Below, piece by piece: positions 984-19,662 of a DNA stretch of 21,992 nucleotides (position 1 is the stretch's first letter; the number at the start of each line of letters is the position of its first letter). The stretch comes from a virus: positions 1 through 21,992 of the IMG/VR virus record IMGVR_UViG_3300005529_000750. One strand, 5' to 3'. The translations under genes were made by a program, and so were the position numbers. The notes below the pieces were generated by a model, which searched no databases, was not told the DNA's origin, and saw only the letters and a list, made by a program, of their open reading frames with translations.

Positions 984-1025
984 TTACTTACGGCCCTTGC
1001 GGTGAGACTTACGCTTGGCGGTCAT
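984..1025 (-). CDS. Very basic 13-aa microprotein
   Basis: The peptide is MTAKRKSHRKGRK, eight of its thirteen residues basic, ending in TAA. It would be the first gene after the promoter at 1105-1076. An AGAAGGA ribosome site is eight bases before the chosen ATG (1025); an earlier in-frame ATG at 1034 would add only MPT and leaves no room for the site. A charged peptide like this could bind nucleic acid or the acidic scaffold. No family is recognised, and the ORF is short enough that it could instead be a leader peptide. Confidence 0.4.
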   Translation of the reverse strand: MTAKRKSHRKGRK

Positions 1026-1075
1026 CGTTGGCATCCTTCTGAAAAACCGGGAGACACCCGTATCCCGACGCCTGA

Positions 1076-1105
1076 AAAATACGGTCGCGTAAAAATCAGT
1101 GTCAA
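1076..1105 (-). promoter_or_regulatory. Candidate sigma70-type promoter for the leftward head genes
   Basis: On the minus strand TTGACA (1105-1100) is followed after 17 bases by GTATTT (1082-1077), or after 18 by TATTTT. The -35 is a full consensus match. The ~125-bp space between the divergent microprotein and portal genes makes it a natural promoter site, and it is needed because the inverted portal interrupts the leftward array. Confidence 0.55.
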
Positions 1106-1151
1106 TATAGCCTCGCTCTACGCCAGGACACGTTCTATAGGACGACATGGG

Positions 1152-2921
1152 ATGCGCATTCCGAAGAACCATCTTGAGAAATTCGTCAGACAAGTTGCTG
1201 ACGATTGCATGGCGTCTCAGAAGGATCGCACCAATCGAGGTGCTTTTTACAGAAACTACGTGTTGTTCGGCAGCGAAAAACCGGACAGTCCGGCGATGTA
1301 CAACAAGACATTCGCCTATATGGACGATCTGGAATCTCTGCTGTATTCGCCGATCTCGCTCAAGTTCCACATCGGCGACCCCGACCTTCCCAACATCCTG
1401 TCCCAGGCCAAGGGACGGGCGGCGGCGCAGAGGCTGCGCACCTATGCGCGGCGCTCAGACACCGACACCCATATTTCCGAGGCGGTGTTCTGGTCGCTGG
1501 TGAAGGGCAAGACCTTCATCAAGCAGACCTGGAAACGCGGCGGGTTTTCGCCCGCCCTGGTGCAGCCCGAGAACATGGGCGTGATGCACGAGCACCACAC
1601 GCAGTTGGACGAGGACATGGAGGCCTTCGTCCATTCGATGCTGATCACGCCCTATCAGTTCGAGCGCATGATCGCGCGCAACCCCGACCGCGACGCCCTG
1701 CGCAAACGCGCCCAGCGCTACATGAAGGAGATGCGCAACGGCCTGTCGCCCAGCGAGGGGTCGGCCAAGCAGGTGATCATCGGCGGCCTCTATCCGTTCC
1801 AGCCGGCCGGCGGCTCGCCCAGCAACACCCGAGGCATCGTCGATTGGATGGGCGGCCCGTCGCCCACGCTCTCGCCGCGCGTGATGCAGAGCTTCATGCA
1901 GTTGGACGAGGTGTGGGTCTGGGACGACGATCGAGACGGGTGGGCCACGTTCCAGATGATCGGCGACGACATGCTGATCTGGGGTAAGCACTTCATCGCC
2001 AACGCCCTGGCGTGGAACTCCAGTTCGCTGGCTGAAATCCCCGAACTGAAGGCCAAGCACCCGTTCAACGAGGTCTGCCCCAACCGCATGGCCGACTATT
2101 TCTGGGGCCGTTCGGAAGTGATCAATGTGGCCCTGTTGCAAGAGGCGATCAACGCCCGGATCAGCGGGATCAACCGCCTGTTGCGCAAGCAGGAAGACCC
2201 GCCGCGCTATTTCAAGATGTCCACGGGGGTGAATCAGGTCGCCCTGTCGCGGTTCAACAAGCCCGGCGGCTTCTGGACCGACAACAACCCCCAGGCCGAC
2301 ATGAAGGAGCTGACGCCCGAGATCAAGGCGGACCTGTGGGCCTCGCTGCACGAGTACGAGCGGATGTTCGACGAGATGGGCGGCCTGCCGCCGATCGCCA
2401 AGGGCCATGGCGAGGCCGGGGTGCGATCGGCGGGCCATGCGGAGACCCTGGTGCGGATGTTCTCGCCCCGCTTCAAGGATCGCGCCCTGCTGGTCGAGCG
2501 CGATGTGGAGGGGATCGGTTCGCTGATGCTCGACCTGGCCCGGGTGCATGACCCGAAGAAGATGGTGGCGTGGATTCCCGAACCCCTGGCCGGGCTGGAG
2601 GGGGTCAAGGCCGACCCGCTGATCGTGCCGCCGGCCGAAGGGCTGGTCGCCGCGCCGTTCAGTTTCGACGACCTGGACGACGACGTGACCCTGACGGTGG
2701 ACGCCCACAGCGCCTCGCCTGCGTTCCAGGCCGAGGCCAAGGCGCTGGTGTTCGACCTGCTGAAGATCGGGGCCATGGGTCCGGAGGACGTGGTGGAGCA
2801 CGTCGATATCGGCGATCCGGGCGAGCTGGAGATGGGCATCGTGCGCCGCCGCATCGAACAGGCTAAGGCGCAGGCGCGCGACCAGCAGCTCAAGCTGGTC
2901 GCCCAGGCCGGGCGGCGCTGA
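1152..2921 (+). CDS. Phage portal (head-tail connector) protein
   Basis: 589 residues from the ATG at 1152; AGGA lies nine bases upstream, and the reading frame before it is divergent promoter DNA, so the longer form from 1002 was rejected. Portal proteins form the dodecameric ring at one capsid vertex through which the terminase packages DNA. Support comes from length, composition and context: an N-terminal section with YNKTFAYMDDLESLLYSP, a WVWDDDRDGWATFQMIGDD strand pair, the conserved-looking CPNRMADYFWGRSEVINVA helix, then HEYERMFDEMGGLPPIAKG and a receptor-like RSAGHAETLVRMFSPR segment, all typical of podophage-type portals beside TerL and a scaffold. It is the only plus-strand gene among the packaging/head genes, and its TGA (2919-2921) directly abuts the stop of the opposing gene. 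Fold assignment is from memory of the family rather than a search. Confidence 0.8.
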   Translation: MRIPKNHLEKFVRQVADDCMASQKDRTNRGAFYRNYVLFGSEKPDSPAMYNKTFAYMDDLESLLYSPISLKFHIGDPDLPNILSQAKGRAAAQRLRTYARRSDTDTHISEAVFWSLVKGKTFIKQTWKRGGFSPALVQPENMGVMHEHHTQLDEDMEAFVHSMLITPYQFERMIARNPDRDALRKRAQRYMKEMRNGLSPSEGSAKQVIIGGLYPFQPAGGSPSNTRGIVDWMGGPSPTLSPRVMQSFMQLDEVWVWDDDRDGWATFQMIGDDMLIWGKHFIANALAWNSSSLAEIPELKAKHPFNEVCPNRMADYFWGRSEVINVALLQEAINARISGINRLLRKQEDPPRYFKMSTGVNQVALSRFNKPGGFWTDNNPQADMKELTPEIKADLWASLHEYERMFDEMGGLPPIAKGHGEAGVRSAGHAETLVRMFSPRFKDRALLVERDVEGIGSLMLDLARVHDPKKMVAWIPEPLAGLEGVKADPLIVPPAEGLVAAPFSFDDLDDDVTLTVDAHSASPAFQAEAKALVFDLLKIGAMGPEDVVEHVDIGDPGELEMGIVRRRIEQAKAQARDQQLKLVAQAGRR

Positions 2922-3494: not shown

Positions 3495-3841
3495 GTCGCC
3501 GGCCTCCAGGCGACCGGCTTGAAGAGAACCGGCTGGCCGCCCGAGTTCCGCACCGACCAGAAGCCGATCACGCGCCATTTTCCGCCGTTTTTGTCCCATC
3601 TGCGGGTGTGGCGCCAGACCGCCTCCAGAATCTGCTTTTCCCCGCTCATCAGCAGCACCGGCTTGCCGTCGTCGGGCGCGCTGGACATGGCCTCCCAGCC
3701 CTTGGGGACGATCGCGCCTGGCTCTGCGACATCGGAGGGGGTCAATTGCTGGATGGCGGGCTGGAATCCGGCGTCCACCTCGACGTGGCCGTGGAGCGGC
3801 GGGCGCCCTCGCCGCTTGGGTTCAGGTCCAACGTCCGTCAT
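3491..3841 (-). CDS. DUF551-like protein with AT-hook-like N-terminus, 116 aa
   Basis: Overlaps terminase and the downstream zinc-finger gene by ATGA at both ends, so it is translationally coupled. The N-terminus has KRRGRPPLHG, matching the RGRP core of an AT-hook that binds the minor groove. Residues ~48-114 (GWEAMSSAPDDGKPVLLM ... VWRH ... WRVIGFWS ... FKPVAWRP) follow the Trp-spaced pattern of the small DUF551-like domain common in phages, whose role is unknown. The combination could tether it to DNA during packaging, but that is speculative. Confidence 0.65.
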   Translation of the reverse strand: MTDVGPEPKRRGRPPLHGHVEVDAGFQPAIQQLTPSDVAEPGAIVPKGWEAMSSAPDDGKPVLLMSGEKQILEAVWRHTRRWDKNGGKWRVIGFWSVRNSGGQPVLFKPVAWRPAT

Positions 3842-5742
3842 GACAGCCCCATGTCCACCCGCCAGCTTGGCCGGATATCCTCCATCTGCGCGCGCTGCTC
3901 CGCCGTCAAGAAAAACCTCTGCACGATCTGGTTCAGCGCCTTGTTCTGGGGCGTGGCCTTGCCGCTTTCCTCGTCCATCACCCGCTGCCAGGTCAGGCCC
4001 TGGCCGAGCATCTCCGGGCGTCGCCAGTTGATCCAGGCGCGCACCGCCAGGGCGGTGGCGAACACCCGGTCATCCTTGGAATTCTCGCCCGAGGACTCCG
4101 GCGCGCCGATTTCCGATCCGTCCACCACCACGATCCGCATCTCGTCCAGCAGCGGGATCGAGCGGATCACCAGTTCGCGGGTGATGTAGGCCCCGCGCAT
4201 CTGGTGCATGATCTCGCTCTTGGTGCGCCAGGTGGTCTCGAAATTCGCGGCGAAGCCCCGCCCCATGGTGTCGGGCCGATTGTAGAGGTACCAGCGGGCG
4301 TTGCCGAGCGCGTTCTCCCAGTCTCGGGCGCGCACCAGGCCTTCGTTCATCTGGGCGTTGAGCAGGTCGCGGACGTGCTCCCACTCCATCATCAGCGCCC
4401 GGCCGGGGCCGTTCAGGTCGATGTTGACGATGCAGTCGGTGTAGGCGCCGGCCAGGTGCGCGACCACCCAGGCCGCGTGCTTCACCTCGACGTTGGCGCT
4501 GGCGTATTCGGCCACCTGGATCAGCTTGTCGCCGAAGCAGCGGTACACCTCGATGCCGTGGCGATCCTTGTGGTCGTTGCGGCCCCAGGCCGGGTCCATG
4601 CCGATCACGTACTTGCCTTCGGCGACCGGCTCCTCCCACACGCGAAGTTCGATCTCGCGGTCCTCGCCGTCCTCGATCGGATGCAGCTTGATGTCGAAGA
4701 ACGAGCCGTCCAGCTCATAGCGGTAGGCGGCGTAACCGTAGCCGCCCTCCTCCACCGGCGCCGGCGGGGCGTCGATGATCTCCTTGATGTCCTTGGCCAC
4801 CTGCCGGGACTGGAAAAACGAGTAGCCGGACATGACGAAGGCGTCGTCTTCGGTCCAGGGCTGGTTCTGGGCGAAGATGCCGTCCGCCTCGCCCACGTTG
4901 TCCTGGCGCCAGCGAATCCAGGCCAGTTGCTCGGGCGTGATGCGCCAGCCGTATAGGTGGGCCACGGCGGCGACCCGCTCGCGCTCCTCGCCCGACGCGG
5001 CATAGGTCCCGTACTGGAGGAAGCGCGGATCGCTGCGGGGGATCGCGTTCATGTCGCTGGACCACCAGCCGCAGAACAGAGTGCGCTTGGTGTAGGGATC
5101 GTCCTTGGCGCTCATATACATGCTGCGCCACACGTTGAATCCGTTGGCCGTCGATTCGGCGATCAGCAGCCGGTTGGGGTTCTGCTGGGGCAGAGCCTCC
5201 ATGAACGACTCCACCCCGTCCGCGCTGCCGTATTTGCCCACTTCGGTGAGGTGCGCCATGACATAGCCGGCGCCTTCGGCCCAGGACACAGACTTGGCCT
5301 TTGTTCCTGCGACCAGCAGGTCTAAGCGGCTTCCGTTACTGAATTCGATAAACGATCTGTTGTCCTTTACGATATAGAATTCCTCGCCGAAGTAGTCTTT
5401 CGGGAAGCTGTTGACGTACTTCCGCAAGATCATCCGGTTGATGTCGCGGTTTTTTTCGTTGTCCGTGACCAGGGCGCCGAACATATTCTTGTTCATGGCG
5501 CACCAGAACAAATCCAGCGCCAAGGAGATGGTGGTCATGCCCAACTGGCGCGATTTCAGTGTGTAGAACTGCCGAATCCCGTCATCGAGCCCGGTCCCCA
5601 CGAAATTGAGGAACCGTCGCTGGCTCTCCCACAGCATCAGCGGGGCGCCGCGCTCGTCTTCGGACGGCGCCTCCTTGGAACTGATTCTCAGGTCCTTGAT
5701 GAAGTCTTCGAAGACGCTGATCCATTGTGAGGCTTTGGCCAT
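3838..5742 (-). CDS. Large terminase subunit (TerL)
   Basis: 634 residues from MAKASQWISVFEDF; the ATG at 5742 overlaps the TGA of the upstream gene, so the longer open frame to 5931 was rejected. TerL is the ATP-driven motor that threads DNA through the portal and cuts it. Visible motifs: Walker A-like SRQLGMTT (~64-71), Walker B-like VMAHLTEV with the catalytic Glu (~161-168), coupling motif AEST (~195-198), and an RNase H-like nuclease with acidic residues in VIGMDPAWG (D383), NIDLNGPG (D442) and KDDRVFATALAV (D558). Both ATPase and nuclease centres are intact and the length is normal. No small terminase is obvious nearby; the zinc ribbon or RHH gene upstream could fill that place but does not look like TerS. 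Confidence 0.95.
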   Translation of the reverse strand: MAKASQWISVFEDFIKDLRISSKEAPSEDERGAPLMLWESQRRFLNFVGTGLDDGIRQFYTLKSRQLGMTTISLALDLFWCAMNKNMFGALVTDNEKNRDINRMILRKYVNSFPKDYFGEEFYIVKDNRSFIEFSNGSRLDLLVAGTKAKSVSWAEGAGYVMAHLTEVGKYGSADGVESFMEALPQQNPNRLLIAESTANGFNVWRSMYMSAKDDPYTKRTLFCGWWSSDMNAIPRSDPRFLQYGTYAASGEERERVAAVAHLYGWRITPEQLAWIRWRQDNVGEADGIFAQNQPWTEDDAFVMSGYSFFQSRQVAKDIKEIIDAPPAPVEEGGYGYAAYRYELDGSFFDIKLHPIEDGEDREIELRVWEEPVAEGKYVIGMDPAWGRNDHKDRHGIEVYRCFGDKLIQVAEYASANVEVKHAAWVVAHLAGAYTDCIVNIDLNGPGRALMMEWEHVRDLLNAQMNEGLVRARDWENALGNARWYLYNRPDTMGRGFAANFETTWRTKSEIMHQMRGAYITRELVIRSIPLLDEMRIVVVDGSEIGAPESSGENSKDDRVFATALAVRAWINWRRPEMLGQGLTWQRVMDEESGKATPQNKALNQIVQRFFLTAEQRAQMEDIRPSWRVDMGLS

Positions 5743-5951
5743 CAGTGGATCGTGACCTCTATCCAGTCGGCGGTGCGCCCGCAATACCACTCCCCGCCGG
5801 CGCCGGCCACGAACGAGGCGGCGTCCTGCCAGCGCCCGGTCGGCTGGTTCTCGTCGTCGAACAGATTGGTGATCGGCAGCCGCCGGCCGTCTTCGGTGAC
5901 GACGAACCCGCCCCTGAGATTGATCGCGCACAGCCCCATGGCCCGGATCAT
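5742..5951 (-). CDS. Hypothetical 69-aa protein
   Basis: Starts MIRAMGLCAINLRGGFVVTE and ends DWIEVTIH, with its TGA sharing bases with the terminase ATG, so translation of terminase is probably coupled to it. The strand-rich pattern (RLPITNLFDDENQPTGRW, GGEWYCGRTADWIEV) suggests a small beta fold. No family or motif is recognised. It lies 25 bases downstream of the Ntn hydrolase gene. Confidence 0.6.
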   Translation of the reverse strand: MIRAMGLCAINLRGGFVVTEDGRRLPITNLFDDENQPTGRWQDAASFVAGAGGEWYCGRTADWIEVTIH

Positions 5952-10815: not shown

Positions 10816-11365
10816 TTTGGGGCGGGGACGGATGGGGCCTCCATCCGTGACGATTCGCGCGGACCAACGCGGGCCGCCGAGCGCCTGGCCTAGGGTGGTC
10901 AGGGGCCTGCAACACCGATCACGGGCGCGTGAAAACGGCGTCTAATATGTAGTATCGGAAGTTTTTGCCAGTCCTAAAACGCCGCTTTTGAATGTTCAAG
11001 CCGCATTATCGGAAGTCACCGAACGAATGCAGTCTAAGCACGTTTTCAGAGGGTCTTCAACACTACCTGGGACGAGTCGCTATACTGGCCACCTAATCAG
11101 CTCGCCGAGCGACCTTACACGCGCGCAGGCGGCTAGAGCGAGAGGCGATTTCGGAGGTACGCCAGCCTCTCGCCTTTATCCGCGTCGCTGGTTTTTGTCT
11201 GGTCGACCGTTTGCCGAGGCGCGGCGTTGGTGTGGGTTTGTCTGGTTTGATCTGGGGTAGGTGGAGATAGGGGAGGAAGGATGGTTCGCGCACTCTAGTC
11301 GGGACGGGGCGGGGGTTTGCGCTGCGATGGGTCGCCGAGGCCTTGTGGGGCTTGCTGGCGGGCGT
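10816..11365. other. Noncoding stretch of about 550 bp
   Basis: No convincing gene. It holds two direct copies of TATCGGAAGT (10953-10962 and 11007-11016, 54 bp apart), a CGGCGT/ACGCCG inverted pair around the first copy, and a perfect 9-bp stem GCGAGAGGC (11138-11146) / GCCTCTCGC (11165-11173) with an 18-base loop. Around 11200-11400 the plus strand becomes G/T-rich, unlike the flanks. It may hold promoters or be remnant DNA. Confidence 0.5.
11138..11173. terminator. 9-bp hairpin, possible terminator
   Basis: GCGAGAGGC / GCCTCTCGC, perfect 9-bp stem with an 18-base loop, followed on the plus strand by CTTTATC. It lies downstream of the YdaU-like gene on the minus strand. The loop is long and the T-run poor, so a terminator role is only possible. 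Confidence 0.3.
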
Positions 11366-11854
11366 TCAGCGCTTGGGCAGTGTGTCGGTGCGCACTGGGC
11401 GTCGAGGGCGCTGGTCGGGCGCTGGGGGGCGATCTGGGGATGGCTCACGCTTGGGGGTGATGCCGAGCTGCTGGAAGGCGGTGGGCTCGGAAGGGGAGTG
11501 ATAGGCGTCTAGCCTTCGCTTGGCGGCTTGGGCCGCGCGGGCGCCGCCGCCGCGTGAGGCGACCAGCTTAATGGTCGTGGCCTTGGTTCGGCGTTCATGG
11601 TGATAGCGTTCGAGCGCTGGCTTGATGTCGGCGAAGACCTGCAGAACGTCCGCTCGGTGATGGCGCCAGGTCGGGCCGTGGGCTCGGGCGAGCTGGCGTA
11701 GGGAATAGTCGTCGCCGGGGAGGGGGCGCAGTTCCGTGTCCCAAAAATGGAAGCAGAGGCGCATGAGGGCGCCGAGCGCAGCGCCGGGCAGATGGATTGC
11801 GAGCGGGTGGCGCATGATCGGCTCGACGGGCATGGGATACAGCTTGCGCGCCAT
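11366..11854 (-). CDS. YdaU/DUF1376-like protein
   Basis: 162 residues from MARKLYPMPVEPIMRHPLAI. Pattern matches that I recognise: YPMP..P.MRHPLA, GALMRLCFHFWDTELRPLP, LRQLARAHGPTWRHHRADVL, then a basic KLVASRGGGARAAQAAKRRL helix and a Pro/Arg-rich disordered tail. The family is found in phages and prophages and is thought to take part in replication. No good ribosome site marks the start; the frame is open to 11968 with other ATGs at 11968 and 11953 and a GTG at 11881. Base composition (Arg/His-rich, different strand skew) differs from the neighbouring phage genes. Confidence 0.55.
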   Translation of the reverse strand: MARKLYPMPVEPIMRHPLAIHLPGAALGALMRLCFHFWDTELRPLPGDDYSLRQLARAHGPTWRHHRADVLQVFADIKPALERYHHERRTKATTIKLVASRGGGARAAQAAKRRLDAYHSPSEPTAFQQLGITPKREPSPDRPPAPDQRPRRPVRTDTLPKR

Positions 11855-12455: not shown

Positions 12456-12525
12456 CCCCACCAAGACATCCATAGGCGCGCTGGCGGCGATTCTGCTGGG
12501 CGCAGCGTTCCTGCTGGGCGGATGA
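12448..12525 (+). CDS. 25-aa membrane microprotein 3 (GTG start)
   Basis: VIDPTKTSIGALAAILLGAA then FLLGG; a single span (~9-24). GTG at 12448 overlaps the previous ORF by eight bases and its TGA overlaps the ATG of the CtrA-like regulator (ATGA). Tight nesting at both ends supports translation, though the ORF alone would be too short to call. Confidence 0.4.
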   Translation: MIDPTKTSIGALAAILLGAAFLLGG

Positions 12526-12908
12526 GCCTCGCCCGCCGCTATGATCACGAGGAACTGATCGCAGAGCTACAGGCCGAAGTCGCTTGGCTTCGCGCCGAGC
12601 TGGGCTATCGGGATGAGCGCATTCCCACCATTGGCCGCGTGCTCGGGCTTACGCAGCAGCAAGCCCATATCGTATCCATCCTGTATGGCGGGCGCGGCCG
12701 CTGGGTCTTGCGCACGGTGATCGACGACGAAGTGCGCATTGAGGCTCTTGTCGGTAAGCGATCCAACGGCGCGGTGGACACCCAGGTCTGCAAGATACGC
12801 CGCAAGCTGGGGTTCGACGCCATCCGCAGCGACGGGAGCGGAACCCTGGCTGCGCTCTGCCTATCGCGCGCGTTGGTCGCCAAGCTCGATCTCGTGTTTT
12901 CCCCTTAG
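12522..12908 (+). CDS. CtrA/OmpR-like winged-helix regulator without receiver domain, 128 aa
   Basis: Residues ~8-35 (DHEELIAELQAEVAWLRAEL) form a coiled coil. Residues ~40-115 follow the C-terminal DNA-binding domain of CtrA/OmpR-type regulators: LGLTQQQAHIVSILYGGRGR, then VIDDEV, then NGAVDTQVCKIRRKLGFDAI. There is no phospho-acceptor receiver domain, so the coiled coil probably dimerises it instead. A paralogue with the same two-part layout lies at 15140-15523. It may bind sites near the phage promoters or CtrA-like host sites; that is inference. It overlaps the membrane microprotein before it. Confidence 0.7.
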   Translation: MSLARRYDHEELIAELQAEVAWLRAELGYRDERIPTIGRVLGLTQQQAHIVSILYGGRGRWVLRTVIDDEVRIEALVGKRSNGAVDTQVCKIRRKLGFDAIRSDGSGTLAALCLSRALVAKLDLVFSP

Positions 12909-12913
12909 GGCGT

Positions 12914-12942
12914 TTGACCGGCGAACGACAGCAACCTGGAAT
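12914..12942 (+). promoter_or_regulatory. Candidate promoter upstream of the 58-aa membrane gene
   Basis: TTGACC (12914-12919), 17-base spacer, TGGAAT (12937-12942). A GCAACCTGGA repeat lies over the -10 region. A 110-nt leader would precede the gene at 13022. Confidence 0.3.
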
Positions 12943-13021
12943 CCGGCTCGACTCGGTTGGACCTGATCCTGTGGCAACCTGGACCGTGGCTGAGGCGTTT
13001 CCTCACAAAGGAGCCGCGCCC

Positions 13022-13198
13022 ATGACCCTGATCGGCCTTTTGGTTGTCGTCGTCGTGATCTGTCTGATCGTCTATCTGCTCCAGCGGCTTCCGCTGCCGG
13101 CGCCATTCAACTGGATCGCGCCCGCGATCGTGATCCTGTTCCTGATCGTGTGGCTGCTGGAGGGCCTGCCGGGGCTCGGCGCTCACCGATTGTTGTGA
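13022..13198 (+). CDS. Two-span membrane protein, Thivi_2564-like, 58 aa
   Basis: AAGGAG lies eight bases before the ATG at 13022, which decides this start over the longer open frame from 12914. Helix 1 (~3-19, LIGLLVVVVVICLIVYLL), a short QRLPLPAPFNW loop, helix 2 (~30-46, APAIVILFLIVWLL). The layout resembles the Thivi_2564 family of small membrane proteins, common in proteobacteria and prophages, function unknown. It precedes the structured RNA on the same strand. Confidence 0.65.
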   Translation: MTLIGLLVVVVVICLIVYLLQRLPLPAPFNWIAPAIVILFLIVWLLEGLPGLGAHRLL

Positions 13199-13205
13199 AC
13201 ACGGA

Positions 13206-13211
13206 TTGACA
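13206..13211 (+). promoter_or_regulatory. TTGACA, possible -35 of the structured RNA
   Basis: Exact consensus -35 just after the 58-aa gene. No convincing -10 follows (TAGCAA after 15 bases is the nearest), so it is only a possible promoter for the structured region that starts at about 13229. Confidence 0.25.
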
Positions 13212-13228
13212 GAACAGGCGGCACGGTA

Positions 13229-13660
13229 GCAACCTGAAAAAGTTGGGGCGGCCCAGTTAGTCGCTGGACCGCCCCGGAATGTCGTTTGCAGGAACGACAG
13301 AGCAATTGCCCAACCAATTTAGGGCAGTTCGGTTCCCGCAACAAGACGACATTTCACCGGGTCACGCCGTTGACAGCGCGTGGCGCGTCGGTGCCGGAGC
13401 AATCCGGACGGGGGCTTCCCGTATGGTGTCGTCAGCGACCCGACGCAGTGCGCACTGGTGAGGCCCGATCATAGCGCAACCCGAGTCCGAATAGGCGAAG
13501 CGGGGATCGGCAAGGGCTCGGAGACCCTTGTAAAGCAGTCGCCCCCACCGGCTCTCACCGAGTAGATGCCGGCGCACGCATTGGGCCTCGAAAGAGGCTC
13601 ACCGTGCAGGACCGCCCTTCGCGCCGTTCCGGCCGGAGGCTGGTCTTCCTGTGTCTTTTA
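13229..13660 (+). ncRNA. Candidate large structured noncoding RNA (about 430 nt)
   Basis: No convincing ORF on either strand, but a series of compatible stems. GGGGCGGCCCAG/CTGGACCGCCCC (13245-13256/13264-13275, one mismatch); TGTCGTT/AACGACA (13280-13286/13293-13299); TGCCC/GGGCA (13307-13311/13322-13326). GACGACA/TGTCGTC (13345-13351/13427-13433) encloses CACGC/GCGTG (13363-13367/13378-13382), CCGGA-GCAA-TCCGG (13394-13407) and ACGGG/CCCGT (13408-13412/13418-13422), i.e. a four-way junction. Then CCGATC/GATCGG (13465-13470/13505-13510), CAAGGG/CCCTTG (13511-13516/13525-13530), CCGGC/GCCGG (13548-13552/13568-13572) and GCACG/CGTGC (13574-13578/13603-13607) around GCCTC-GAAA-GAGGC (13585-13598). 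GNRA loops appear only when read on the plus strand. A terminator follows. I match no known RNA family; large phage RNAs such as GOLLD and ROOL are obvious comparisons. Confidence 0.6.
13629..13659 (+). terminator. Probable terminator of the structured RNA
   Basis: CCGGCC (13629-13634), loop GGA, GGCTGG (13638-13643; one G-U pair), then the pyrimidine-rich TCTTCCTGTGTCTTTT to 13659. The T-run is delayed, so efficiency is uncertain. Confidence 0.45.
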
Positions 13661-13768
13661 AAAAAGTCTATCCGTAACAATATCTTATCAGAGTCAGCTA
13701 AACGGAAAGATTCTCTCAAGCACTGGTGCTAGGAAAAATCGTCGCCGATTTGGAAAAAGGCTCGACCG

Positions 13769-13924
13769 ATGCGCTATCTCCCGCTTTGCCTGGCGACGTG
13801 GGCGACGCTGTTTCTGCTGGCGGGAACGCTGGCGTGGCTGATCGCGCATAACCCGCTGCTGGCTCTGCTGCTGGCGGTCGCCGTGGTCGTGGCGACGCTG
13901 GCGGCGGTGCTGCACCTCAGTTGA
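13769..13924 (+). CDS. Two-span membrane protein, 51 aa
   Basis: ATG at 13769 with AAAGG nine bases upstream; ends at TGA 13922-13924, six bases from the opposing gene's stop. MRYLPLCLATWATLFLLAGT starts helix 1 (~5-27), a short HNP turn follows, and helix 2 (~30-48) is LLALLLAVAVVVATLAAVL. No family recognised. AT-rich DNA at 13660-13768 is its upstream region and probably holds its promoter. Confidence 0.55.
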   Translation: MRYLPLCLATWATLFLLAGTLAWLIAHNPLLALLLAVAVVVATLAAVLHLS

Positions 13925-13930
13925 GGCGCA

Positions 13931-14545
13931 TCACGCCATCTTCCGCAGCCGCTCGGCCATCTGCTGCGGGGTCTCGCGCGTGGCGGGGACCGGCGGAGGA
14001 GTCAGCTTGAATTCCGCCAGCATGGCGCGGACTTTCTGGCGGTCCTCGTCGCTAATCTGGCGGGCGATTGGCGGCTTGTATTCGGCGATGCGCTTGGCCC
14101 GCCAGGCGGCGACCCTGATCTTGATCGCGATCGGCTCGGCCAGCTTGTAGAGCTGCGCCGGCTTGGGGAAATACTCACCTTCGCGGGCGTAAGCCTTGAC
14201 CGCCGCCTCTAGGGCGTCGAACGGCAGTTCGCCCAGCACGTCGATGTAGGTTTTCCAGAAGCTCGCCCACTGCTCCTCGTTGCGGTCCGCGAGCCCGTAG
14301 ACGCCCACCAGCGGCATGATCAGGATCGCCACGCCCTCAGCCCCGCACGGGCGCTGGCGGCGCTCCAGGGCGCTCCTGGCGGCGATGGCGTCGGCCCGCA
14401 TCACCGGGTCGCACGCCAGCTCGCGCACCACGTCGTCAGTCTTGCCGTCGCTGCTCAGCCGCGCGAACAAACCCTTGGAGCATTCGCCCCGTGCGCTCAT
14501 CGCGCCGCCGGGCGCCGGGATCAGGTCTAGCTTCTGGTTGGGCAT
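13931..14545 (-). CDS. Replication-associated protein, possible helicase loader, 204 aa
   Basis: Start MPNQKLDLIPAPGGAMSARG at 14545 follows GGAGGGG closely; ATGs at 14560 and 14500 are alternatives. The central part EEQWASFWKTYIDVLGELPF, DALEAAVKAYAREGEYFPKP and AQLYKLAEP resembles phage replication proteins that accompany a DnaT/O-like protein, where W...Y...L..LP...L..A......FP.P..L is a recurring pattern. The C-terminus is Lys/Pro-rich, ending in PQQMAERLRKMA. Its first ~37 codons overlap the end of the upstream replication gene in another frame, an unusually long overlap. Loader function is inferred; there is no Walker A motif. Confidence 0.6.
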   Translation of the reverse strand: MPNQKLDLIPAPGGAMSARGECSKGLFARLSSDGKTDDVVRELACDPVMRADAIAARSALERRQRPCGAEGVAILIMPLVGVYGLADRNEEQWASFWKTYIDVLGELPFDALEAAVKAYAREGEYFPKPAQLYKLAEPIAIKIRVAAWRAKRIAEYKPPIARQISDEDRQKVRAMLAEFKLTPPPVPATRETPQQMAERLRKMA

Positions 14546-14819
14546 AACCCCTCCGGACATGCTCGATATCGTCGGTCCAACGTTCCTGGTTCAACCAAGT
14601 TCCTGCATGAGGAACGAACCGAATATCGCCTGATTCGACCGCTGCGGCAAATAAGACAACCGCGTCACACAAGGTTTGCACCGGATCGCGGCCGCCGATC
14701 TTGTAGATCGCCTTGTCGAAAGCCTTGCGCGCTGCGCCTTTGCCCACCTTGCGCGGGTACAGAGCCCAGAAGGTCTCGAAATCCGCACGCGCCTCGTCGT
14801 CACCAAACAACGTGATCAT
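14436..14819 (-). CDS. Phage replication protein O/DnaT-like domain, 127 aa
   Basis: GGGGGG lies four bases before the ATG at 14819, fixing the start at MITLFGDDEARADFETFWAL. The signature YPRKVGKGAARKAFDKAIYK, then FVPHAGTWLNQERWTDD (~85-100) matches the conserved block F..FW..YPRK.GK..A..A ... FIP....WL...RW.D found at the C-terminus of phage replication initiators. Only that domain is present, so it probably works with the downstream protein. The C-terminal 40 residues are Arg-rich. Confidence 0.7.
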   Translation of the reverse strand: MITLFGDDEARADFETFWALYPRKVGKGAARKAFDKAIYKIGGRDPVQTLCDAVVLFAAAVESGDIRFVPHAGTWLNQERWTDDIEHVRRGYAQPEARPDPGARRRDERTGRMLQGFVRAAEQRRQD

Positions 14820-14839: not shown

Positions 14840-15136
14840 TCAGAGATCGTCCCAGTCGCGCATTCTCAGAAACCGCGTGAGCTGTCCGTTGAGCCTTTGA
14901 ATCACCTTGCTCAGGGTGGCGATGGTCTCCAGAAGCGCGATGCGCTCCGGGTCGTGGTCGGTGTCCACGAACACCACTTCGCGGGTGCCGATCCGCAAGC
15001 CGCAAGTGGTGCACCACCGCCGGCGCCGGATTCCGACCTGCTCAATCATCGCGCGGCTGTCGCGCACGATCATGAACCCATCGCATCCGGGCGCCGGACA
15101 ACGGAAACTGCGCCTGTCCCCTTCGTGCCTCGACAT
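14840..15136 (-). CDS. NrdR-like zinc-ribbon protein, 98 aa
   Basis: C13-C18 (CPAPGC) and C42-C45 (CTTC) with IRRRRWCTTCGLRIGTRE fit the N-terminal zinc ribbon of NrdR (DSR......RRRR.C..CG.R..T.E). The ATP-cone of real NrdR is missing; instead residues ~60-98 (ERIALLETIATLSKVIQRLN) form a helix. So it is probably a transcription factor or DNA-binding accessory using only the ribbon, possibly Ogr-like. It lies three bases from the CtrA-like gene stop. Confidence 0.65.
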   Translation of the reverse strand: MSRHEGDRRSFRCPAPGCDGFMIVRDSRAMIEQVGIRRRRWCTTCGLRIGTREVVFVDTDHDPERIALLETIATLSKVIQRLNGQLTRFLRMRDWDDL

Positions 15137-15139
15137 GGA

Positions 15140-15523
15140 TCAGGCCGCCTGCTTGGGCGCGGCGACGCCATCGCATAAGGCGATCCCCAGCGATGTCAGG
15201 CGGTAGCCGTGCCACCCGGCGGTCTCGATCACCGTCATGGGCGCGAACCGCTTGCGGATGCGATGGATGTAGACCTTGACGGTGTTCTCGTCGCGGTCGC
15301 GCGTGCGCCACCGAGGCAGGTTGTCGAGGATGAAGCCATCCTTGATGATCTTGCCGCGCGCCGCGTACAGGGTGGAAAGCACATAGGCTTCCTGCGGCGT
15401 GAGCTTGAACGCATGGCCAAGGCGGGCGATCTGGTCATCCCGCATCCCCAGCTCGCCCCGCAGATAGAGCACTTCGTCCTCAAGCTGCTGCCGGGTCATC
15501 TTGACTGGATCGACGCCGCACAT
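15140..15523 (-). CDS. CtrA/OmpR-like winged-helix regulator, second copy, 127 aa
   Basis: GGAGGGG precedes ATG 15523; a start at 15499 would create an ATGA overlap with rusA and is equally possible. Residues ~9-35 (MTRQQLEDEVLYLRGELGMR) form the coiled coil, and ~40-113 the winged helix: FKLTPQEAYVLSTLYAARGK, DENTVKVYIHRIRKRFAPM, IETAGWHGYRL. The last two motifs match the recognition helix and wing of CtrA-type domains (T.V..YI..LR.K ... I.T..G.GY.L) better than the paralogue at 12522. It has no receiver domain, so is not a phosphorelay output. Function inferred: controls replication-block or late genes. Confidence 0.75.
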   Translation of the reverse strand: MCGVDPVKMTRQQLEDEVLYLRGELGMRDDQIARLGHAFKLTPQEAYVLSTLYAARGKIIKDGFILDNLPRWRTRDRDENTVKVYIHRIRKRFAPMTVIETAGWHGYRLTSLGIALCDGVAAPKQAA

Positions 15524-17487: not shown

Positions 17488-17666
17488 CCCTGCTCCAGCC
17501 CTGGCCGGTGTTCGGCGGCTTCCGCATCGCCCGCGTGGGCATGTGGACGCTGGCCGGGCGCGACGCCGATCAGGGCTGGGATCAGGACTATGAATTCGTC
17601 GGCAAGCGCGTGTGGCCCACCGAGGCCGAATGCCAAGCCGCGATTGAGCGAAGGGATTTCCAGTGA
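17484..17666 (+). CDS. Hypothetical Trp-rich protein, 60 aa
   Basis: MTLLQPWPVFGGFRIARVGM, then WTLAGRDADQGWDQDYEFVG and KRVWPTEAECQAAIERRDF. The short strand-helix layout with FVGKRVWPTEAECQAAI resembles small phage accessory domains, but I cannot name it. It overlaps the RecE-like gene start. Confidence 0.55.
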   Translation: MTLLQPWPVFGGFRIARVGMWTLAGRDADQGWDQDYEFVGKRVWPTEAECQAAIERRDFQ

Positions 17667-18634
17667 CCGTCGAGATCACCCAGGACGACTTCAGGGCCGC
17701 CAACACCCAGCGGCCGAAGGACCGGCTCAGTTTCGTCAAGTGGGACGGAAAGCCGATCTGCGCGGCGGGCGCCTATGAGGACGTGCCGATGGACGCCTAC
17801 CACGGCCAACTGACGGTCGCGCCGTCGATCAGCTCCAGCGGCCTGCGCACGATCTGGAACCAGTCGCCCGCGCATTATTTCCTGGAGTCCTATCTCAACG
17901 AGGCGCGCGAGCCGCCGCCTGAACGCCCGCACTTCAGCCTGGGCCGCGCCGCGCATCATCTGCTGTTTCTGGGCCGCAAGGGCTTTGACGCCGAATTCGT
18001 GGTGCGCCCAGAGAAATGGTCGGACTGGCGCACCAAGGAGGCCAAGGAGTGGCGGGCCGACCAGATCGAGGCCGGGATGACCATCATCACCGACGCCGAG
18101 CTTGGCCACATCACCGGCATGGCCCGAAGCCTCGCCAAGCACCCGCTGGTGAAGGCGGGCATCCTCGACGGCGCGGTGGAGCGCTCGATGGTGTTCCAGC
18201 ACCACACCGGCGTGTGGCTCAAGAGCCGGCCCGACTGCATCCCGAACGATTCCGGTGATACCGCTGATTTGAAGACCGTGACCAGCGTGTCCGCCGACTC
18301 TCTGCGCCGGTCACTCCGAGATTATGGCTATCACGTACAAGCCGCCTTGGCCGGCATGGCCATGAAGGCGACGCTGGATATCGAGATGACCAGCTTCTCG
18401 CTGGTTTGGGTCGAAAAGACCCCGCCCTACTGCTGCCGGGTGACCGCCTTCACGCCGGAAGACCTGCTGCGCGGACAGATGCAGGTGGATGTCGCCGCGC
18501 GCATCTTCGGCGAGTGCCTGACCAGCGGCGACTGGCCCGGGCCTGGGGGCAATCAGCAAGACGCAGAATATCTCTCGCTCCCGTCCTACGCGGCGTCCGA
18601 CATCGACGCGCGCCTTGAACTGTTGAAGGAATGA
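17663..18634 (+). CDS. RecE-like PD-(D/E)XK exonuclease (DUF3799 type)
   Basis: 323 residues, start at 17663 overlapping the previous stop. The family degrades one strand at double-strand ends to give the 3' overhang on which RecT anneals. Motifs: GRAAHHLLFLG (~94-104), Glu173 (DGAVERSM), SRPD (~188-191), DLKTV (D202, K204) and the YGYHVQAALAG helix (Gln226), the usual order H-E-D-DxK-Q of this superfamily. Length and order are intact. It is followed directly by recT (ATGA), forming a phage recombination pair. YqaJ-type nuclease is a near alternative. Confidence 0.85.
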   Translation: MTVEITQDDFRAANTQRPKDRLSFVKWDGKPICAAGAYEDVPMDAYHGQLTVAPSISSSGLRTIWNQSPAHYFLESYLNEAREPPPERPHFSLGRAAHHLLFLGRKGFDAEFVVRPEKWSDWRTKEAKEWRADQIEAGMTIITDAELGHITGMARSLAKHPLVKAGILDGAVERSMVFQHHTGVWLKSRPDCIPNDSGDTADLKTVTSVSADSLRRSLRDYGYHVQAALAGMAMKATLDIEMTSFSLVWVEKTPPYCCRVTAFTPEDLLRGQMQVDVAARIFGECLTSGDWPGPGGNQQDAEYLSLPSYAASDIDARLELLKE

Positions 18635-19662
18635 CCGTGGCCGACTCAACGCAGATCGCCGTTCGCGAACCCGCTCAACTGGTGGCGGGGGGTGAAGTCG
18701 CCGGCCTCGTGCCGCAGACCATGGAGGAGGCTTATCGGCTCGCCAAAGCCATGCACGCCTCCGGCATGGTTCCGTCTTCGCTGAACAGCACCGAGAAGGT
18801 GTTGGTGGCGATCATGGCTGGCGCCGAGATCGGCCTCGCGCCGTTCCAGGCGAGCCAAGCCTTCGCCATCATCAACGGCAGGCCCGTGCTGTGGGGCGAT
18901 TCCATGCTGGCGGTGGTGCTGCGCAACGGCTTCAAGGTCGAGGAGTGGTTCGACAACGACGACGCCCCGACCAAGGCGTTTTGCCGTGTCACCCGCCCGG
19001 ACAATGGCCAGATCATCGAGCGGTCCTACAGCGTAGATGACGCCAAGAAGGCCAACCTGCTCAACAAGACCGGGCCGTGGTCCACCAATCAGAAGCGGAT
19101 GCTCCAGATGCGGGCGCGCGCCTTTGCGTGCCGCGACGGGGCCTCGGACGCGCTCAAGGGGTTCCAGATGCGCGAGGAAGTGGAGGATTACCCGAAGGAC
19201 CCGCCCGCCACCACCGGCGTGCTCGCCCGCCTACAGCAGAACGAAGACGAGCGCCCGGAAGGCTTCTCCGCTCAGCGCGCCATCGAGGACGCCGCCGAAA
19301 TCGAGCCCGCCGAAGTGCTGGACGCGATCCTTGAGGGCGACGACATCCCGTCGTTCGATCCCGAAACCGGGGAAGTGCGCGAGGAGACCCCCACAGAGCC
19401 GCAAGGAGACCCCGTGGCGGCCGAACCGGCGCGCGAGGCTCCAGACCTGCCGGCGGGCTTCGACGCCCCCTCATGGGCCGCTGGGGCGCACAGACACGCG
19501 CTCGACATGACGGACGCCGAGGCGGTGAGCGCATGGTGGAAGCACCCGGACACCGAAGCCAAATTCAGGGCGCTCGACGCCTATTCGCAGGGACTCGCCG
19601 CTCAACTGCGCGCGGCGGTCTCCAAACACAGAAACGAGCTGAAAAAGGGGAAATCACAATGA
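18631..19662 (+). CDS. recT: RecT-family single-strand annealing protein
   Basis: 343 residues, ATG at 18631 overlapping the nuclease stop. Core ~30-195: YRLAKAMHASGMVP, VLVAIMAGAEIGLAPFQASQ, FAIINGRPVLWGDSMLAVVL, RRMLQMRARAFACRDG-like helix, consistent with RecT-type annealases. Residues ~205-285 are an acidic, Pro-rich linker (EDAAEIEPAEVLDAILEGDD), and ~285-343 form a small C-terminal helical domain ending in a basic tail. It binds single-stranded DNA and pairs complementary strands made by the partner nuclease. It could instead be classed as another SSAP, but RecT is the best fit. Confidence 0.8.
   Translation: MTVADSTQIAVREPAQLVAGGEVAGLVPQTMEEAYRLAKAMHASGMVPSSLNSTEKVLVAIMAGAEIGLAPFQASQAFAIINGRPVLWGDSMLAVVLRNGFKVEEWFDNDDAPTKAFCRVTRPDNGQIIERSYSVDDAKKANLLNKTGPWSTNQKRMLQMRARAFACRDGASDALKGFQMREEVEDYPKDPPATTGVLARLQQNEDERPEGFSAQRAIEDAAEIEPAEVLDAILEGDDIPSFDPETGEVREETPTEPQGDPVAAEPAREAPDLPAGFDAPSWAAGAHRHALDMTDAEAVSAWWKHPDTEAKFRALDAYSQGLAAQLRAAVSKHRNELKKGKSQ

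Follow-up and report, generated by a model that had tools for sequence, protein, structure and literature searches.

A non-coding, strongly folding stretch between convergent genes of a tailed-phage fragment: a candidate RNA of no known family

ROOL RNAs, which are often encoded near tRNA islands, and GOLLD RNAs are large, foldable and non-coding, and both are found in phages. GOLLD RNAs are often longer than 800 nt, and often lie near tRNA genes (PMC12286853). The stretch described here is likewise large, foldable and non-coding, and is carried by a phage, but at ~430 nt it has about half the length of many GOLLD RNAs, it matches neither family in Rfam, and it has no tRNA gene nearby; a tRNA search of the 22-kb window, itself a fragment, found none. 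Convergent junctions with intrinsic terminators, a general architecture of bacterial and phage genomes, offer a second comparison, in that convergent genes, a non-coding gap and hairpin-plus-T patterns in both orientations all recur at this locus; here, however, a long distance separates each candidate terminator from the gene it would serve, and another 330 nt of folded sequence lies between the two terminators. Iteron-type replication origins are similar insofar as a replication-type gene adjoins the stretch and comparable junctions in related phages carry repeat arrays, whereas the stretch itself has neither an excess of repeats nor an array of repeated motifs.

The window, meaning the whole stretch of DNA analysed, is a complete IMG/VR record of 21,992 bases and a fragment of a tailed phage (Table 1). 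Records with a similar terminase reach 54-67 kb, which suggests that this one probably represents about a third of a genome. The convergent gene downstream of the stretch also weakly matches a protein of Caulobacter phage Sansa, which one record annotates as a replication initiation protein; no relative of this gene was found in IMG/VR. A scan of the AT-rich spacer with the sigma-70 consensus gave no good match on either strand.

Table 1. Features of the window, with candidate structures of the non-coding stretch
Position	Strand	Feature	Basis or reading
1002-2921	+	portal gene	
3838-5757	-	terminase gene	
13022-13198	+	upstream gene, 58-aa membrane-type protein	phrog_23151
13199-13660	+	non-coding, strongly folding stretch (the first-described 13229-13660, slightly extended)	ORF scan, GC by codon position, fold z
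13245-13275	-	hairpin of 12 unbroken pairs, then AACTTTTTC	candidate intrinsic terminator of leftward transcription
13278-13353	+	favoured 5' domain: AATGTCGTT pairs with GACGACATT around an inner hairpin	pair probability ~0.98
13345-13433	+	alternative four-way junction: GACGACATT and GGTGTCGTC close three hairpins, one with GCAA loop (13399-13402)	probability ~0.02
13582-13601	+	8-bp hairpin with GAAA loop (13590-13593)	within plus-specific 3' part
13606-13660	+	long imperfect hairpin, then TGTGTCTTTTA	weak candidate for intrinsic termination of rightward transcription
13657-13768		AT-rich spacer 3' of the stretch, 41% GC	possible promoter region, either strand
13769-13924	+	possible small gene, 51-aa hydrophobic protein	GC by position coding-like
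13931-14560	-	convergent gene	weakly resembles helicase loaders (phrog_2289)
17663-19662		exonuclease VIII and RecT genes	

The preliminary description of this locus, made from the letters alone, held that it contains no credible gene, and this was borne out, as 13199-13660 lacks any coding signature. The only stretch of at least 200 nt in the window without an open reading frame of at least 80 aa is 13199-13930. GC content by codon position is flat across the locus, with a contrast of 0.04-0.14 in scan windows starting at 13081-13561 against a window-wide median of 0.30, and the genuine genes of this phage have values of ~0.63/0.42/0.85; further stretches of low periodicity occur elsewhere in the window, such that the missing coding signal alone is not unique to 13199-13660. 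Four pseudo-translations of the stretch contained no Pfam domain. A hidden gene or gene remnant was rejected on the combined lack of codon periodicity, of a Pfam domain, and of a tblastx match in relatives. Codon periodicity is also low at 10950-11370, between two leftward genes, where GC skew rises to 0.42 and the fold is not unusual (z above 0).

The comparison with dinucleotide shuffles that the preliminary description had called for came out in favour of structure, with the plus strand beating all shuffles at z about -3.6 to -4.8. For 13229-13660 the plus strand folds at -200.0 kcal/mol (z -3.59, none of 100 shuffles as stable), and the minus strand reaches z -2.52 (2 of 100 as stable); extending the stretch to 13199-13660 gives z -4.82 and -3.93, respectively. 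When 50 windows were tiled and both strands folded, the target ranked first (z -4.0), narrowly, being nearly matched by the mostly coding tiles 1133-1564 (+, z -3.99) and 14957-15388 (+, z -3.71). The former is the start of the portal gene, which at z -4.0 lies almost as far beyond its shuffles as the stretch itself. Without the 5' hairpin at 13245-13275, the signal falls to z about -2.9 on the plus and -1.9 on the minus strand (13276-13605), and the minus strand of 13276-13660 reaches only -1.4. Stability is at chance in the middle part, 13434-13605 (z -0.65). The ensemble is somewhat better defined than that of shuffles, 14 of 120 being at least as well defined, and 8 of 120 having as many centroid pairs. 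The folding signal of this single sequence is real, but it is partly carried by a hairpin resembling a terminator of the other strand; the fold beats chance, yet is less striking than first described. The case shows how a candidate RNA can seem better folded than it is when the opposite strand carries a terminator-like hairpin.

The hairpin in question had been described as a 12-bp stem near the 5' end of a plus-strand RNA. A stem is indeed present at 13245-13275, but on the plus strand it is interrupted by a C.A mismatch, and only the minus strand pairs without a break, with energies of -25.6 (minus) and -22.9 kcal/mol (plus). Read on the minus strand, the GC-rich hairpin directly precedes a T-run (GGGGCGGTCCAG...CTGGGCCGCCCC AACTTTTTCA), which is the pattern of an intrinsic terminator, and the T-run is present on that strand only. 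By this pattern 13245-13275, the strongest terminator-like site of the region, looks like an intrinsic terminator of the minus strand. At the other end, folding of the 3' part (13566-13660) is clearly specific to the plus strand (z -3.9 plus versus -0.8 minus), and this part includes the described GAAA loop, which we confirmed within its hairpin. The tail TGTGTCTTTTA behind the imperfect hairpin at 13606-13660 is poor as a T-run.

Between these ends, the named stems of the preliminary description all sit where it placed them, although the ten or more that it considered mutually compatible are not all part of the preferred fold. The GCAA loop was found as described, inside CCGGA-GCAA-TCCGG. The four-way junction closed by GACGACA (13345-13351) and TGTCGTC (13427-13433) forms over three hairpins if enforced, but is not the favoured pairing, with a probability of ~0.02. 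Instead, the segment 13345-13353 is predicted to pair with 13278-13286 (~0.98 in the model) rather than with 13425-13433 (~0.02). The corresponding sub-regions differ in strength, the 5' domain reaching z -4.97 (plus) and -4.58 (minus), and the four-way junction z -2.28. The fold containing all listed stems sits 2.2 kcal/mol above the minimum, in which GACGACATT/AATGTCGTT is preferred. Such a difference falls inside the error of the energy model, and the sequence may be able to alternate between the four-way junction and the long-range 5' helix.

Kinship with GOLLD or ROOL, which had been raised as a possibility, was not supported, as the covariance models of Rfam 15, both of these families included, gave no match to the stretch, neither at the gathering score nor with E values up to 10; on this result and the empty tRNA search, a known RNA family, tRNA or tmRNA was rejected. 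Loci from eight relatives likewise matched nothing in Rfam. A blastn search of 50,697 phage records returned nothing, and a plasmid search returned only 35-nt matches. Degenerate scans with pseudo-translations of the stretch, run on IMG/VR (three frames) and on GTDB genomes (one frame), a method that sees only fairly close relatives, confirmed none. The stretch is absent from ~130 terminase relatives and two exonuclease relatives, among which the nearest by terminase (L005 and L006) are fragments ending before the equivalent place, and genome contigs scanned for the terminase yielded no prophage. Two single-sequence covariance models (13329-13433 and 13566-13655), run on 1.3 Mb of relatives, recovered the window itself and otherwise only near-matches with E values between 0.49 and 3.7. 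The top one, L098 (E 0.49), falls within a 368-aa ORF and was rejected; L032, L156 and L153 were weaker (E 1 to 3.7). Near-matches from blastn and nhmmer were taken as chance: L053 and L081, which are similar to each other and look protein-coding, and L090, which lies within a 541-aa open frame. By these searches the stretch is an orphan, with no homologue in any collection covered.

Two related phages, G006 and G005, have a non-coding junction upstream of the same DUF1376-like gene (L149:1188-1716 and L159:8232-8710, respectively), flanked in G006 by a DNA invertase gene on one side, and in G005 by a primase/helicase gene on one side and oppositely oriented genes on the other. These junctions fold strongly (z about -4 and -7), and their folding comes from repeat arrays unrelated to the window stretch. 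The arrays, of dense inverted and direct repeats (GCGTCACCTTTGCG; AACTGGGGCA/TGCCCCAGTT), lie close to the replication module, are far above chance and are possible replication origins. The invertase-type recombinase gene of G006 (L149:1717-2265, phrog_125) directly adjoins its repeat-rich junction. In the window stretch, 7- and 8-mers recur no more often than in shuffles, with 9 direct 7-mer pairs against 10.2 expected, and 16 inverted pairs against 13.1. The window stretch is therefore a non-repetitive fold, unlike the foldable junctions of its relatives. As strong non-coding folds occur in G006, G005 and the window with unrelated sequences, it may be that phages of this kind retain foldable non-coding sequence at such junctions.

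The most economical reading of these results is that the stretch is an untranslated junction between convergent genes, that its terminator-like hairpins face opposite ways, and that its folded core perhaps persists as a phage-specific plus-strand RNA; we give this account an even chance of being correct. The junction would separate a rightward group of small genes from the leftward replication-type gene. Rightward transcription running on beyond 13198 would include the folded sequence in its product and end near 13656, and leftward transcription would end near 13238; the core would most likely form part of these transcript ends, from which a stable, phage-specific plus-strand fragment may remain. 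Convergent gene order with a coding gap, hairpin-plus-T patterns in opposite orientations, a 5' hairpin that pairs completely, and more stably, on the minus strand, a plus-specific 3' part, the drop in signal once the 5' hairpin is removed, and the lack of a homologue in any collection searched are all consistent with this account. It sits less easily with terminators that follow the stop codons of the genes served only after ~460 and ~690 nt, with an unusual overlap of ~400 nt between the two transcripts, with the poor plus-strand T-run, and with a core that still beats its shuffles when the hairpins are taken away. A fold that beats all shuffles and tops 100 window-strands would suit a dedicated plus-strand RNA of ~400 nt, built of several domains, with GNRA loops on its hairpins and a terminator of its own; such an RNA might act as a regulator or scaffold, and might alternate between the four-way junction and the long-range 5' helix. 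In most parts the plus strand is the better-folding one, strongly so in 13566-13660, the ensemble is slightly better defined than shuffles, and the stretch is non-repetitive where foldable junctions of relatives are repetitive. We nevertheless regard a dedicated RNA as doubtful, given that no homologue was found and hence no covariation, that the promoter scan upstream on the plus strand gave no match, that the middle part is no more structured than chance, and that coding windows are nearly as extreme. That the stretch founds a new class of ~400-nt plus-strand phage RNA, with its own terminator and a switch between a AATGTCGTT/GACGACATT helix and a GACGACATT/GGTGTCGTC four-way junction, appears quite unlikely. 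If it is a dedicated RNA, it extends the so far few examples of large structured phage RNAs, and presents two near-equal folds open to chemical probing; as the evidence stands, it is a foldable untranslated junction without a known relative, and a candidate RNA.

Folding on both strands, the adjoining helicase-loader-like gene, four TGTCGTY sites within 155 nt, and the inverted and direct repeat arrays at the comparable junctions of G006 and G005 would suit a DNA element, for instance a replication origin or multi-site operator beside the replication gene, whose inverted repeats would fold on either strand. Repeated 7- and 8-mers at shuffle level, and an over-representation of TGTCGTY across the whole window that makes the motif non-specific to the stretch, render such an element unlikely. 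Finally, an RNA could be read from the minus strand, starting in the AT-rich 13657-13768, which lies upstream on that strand, and ending at 13245-13275, which is more terminator-like than any other site in the region. Minus-strand fold scores of z -2.5 to -3.9 would be compatible with such a transcript, but the minus fold is weaker overall (only -1.4 for 13276-13660), the scan found no good promoter, and the GNRA loops exist on the plus strand only, which makes a minus-strand RNA very unlikely, and the least probable of these explanations.

Several minor observations concern the wider window. TGTCGTY occurs 15 times in total against 4.6 expected (none of 100 shuffles reach 15), and its four copies at the stretch lie within 13280-13433. 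The octamer GCAACCTG, a motif chosen afterwards whose arrangement may be chance, is found exactly three times in the window, always on the plus strand (12931-12938, 12974-12981 and 13229-13236), the copies falling within 306 bp, ahead of the stretch as first described and at its beginning. The region is flanked by two distantly similar winged-helix (Trans_reg_C) proteins, encoded at 12522-12908 (+) and 15140-15523 (-), which are 30% identical. Lastly, the portal and terminase genes lie on opposite strands in the window and in the relative L002, and on one strand in phages MW202753 and MW202825.
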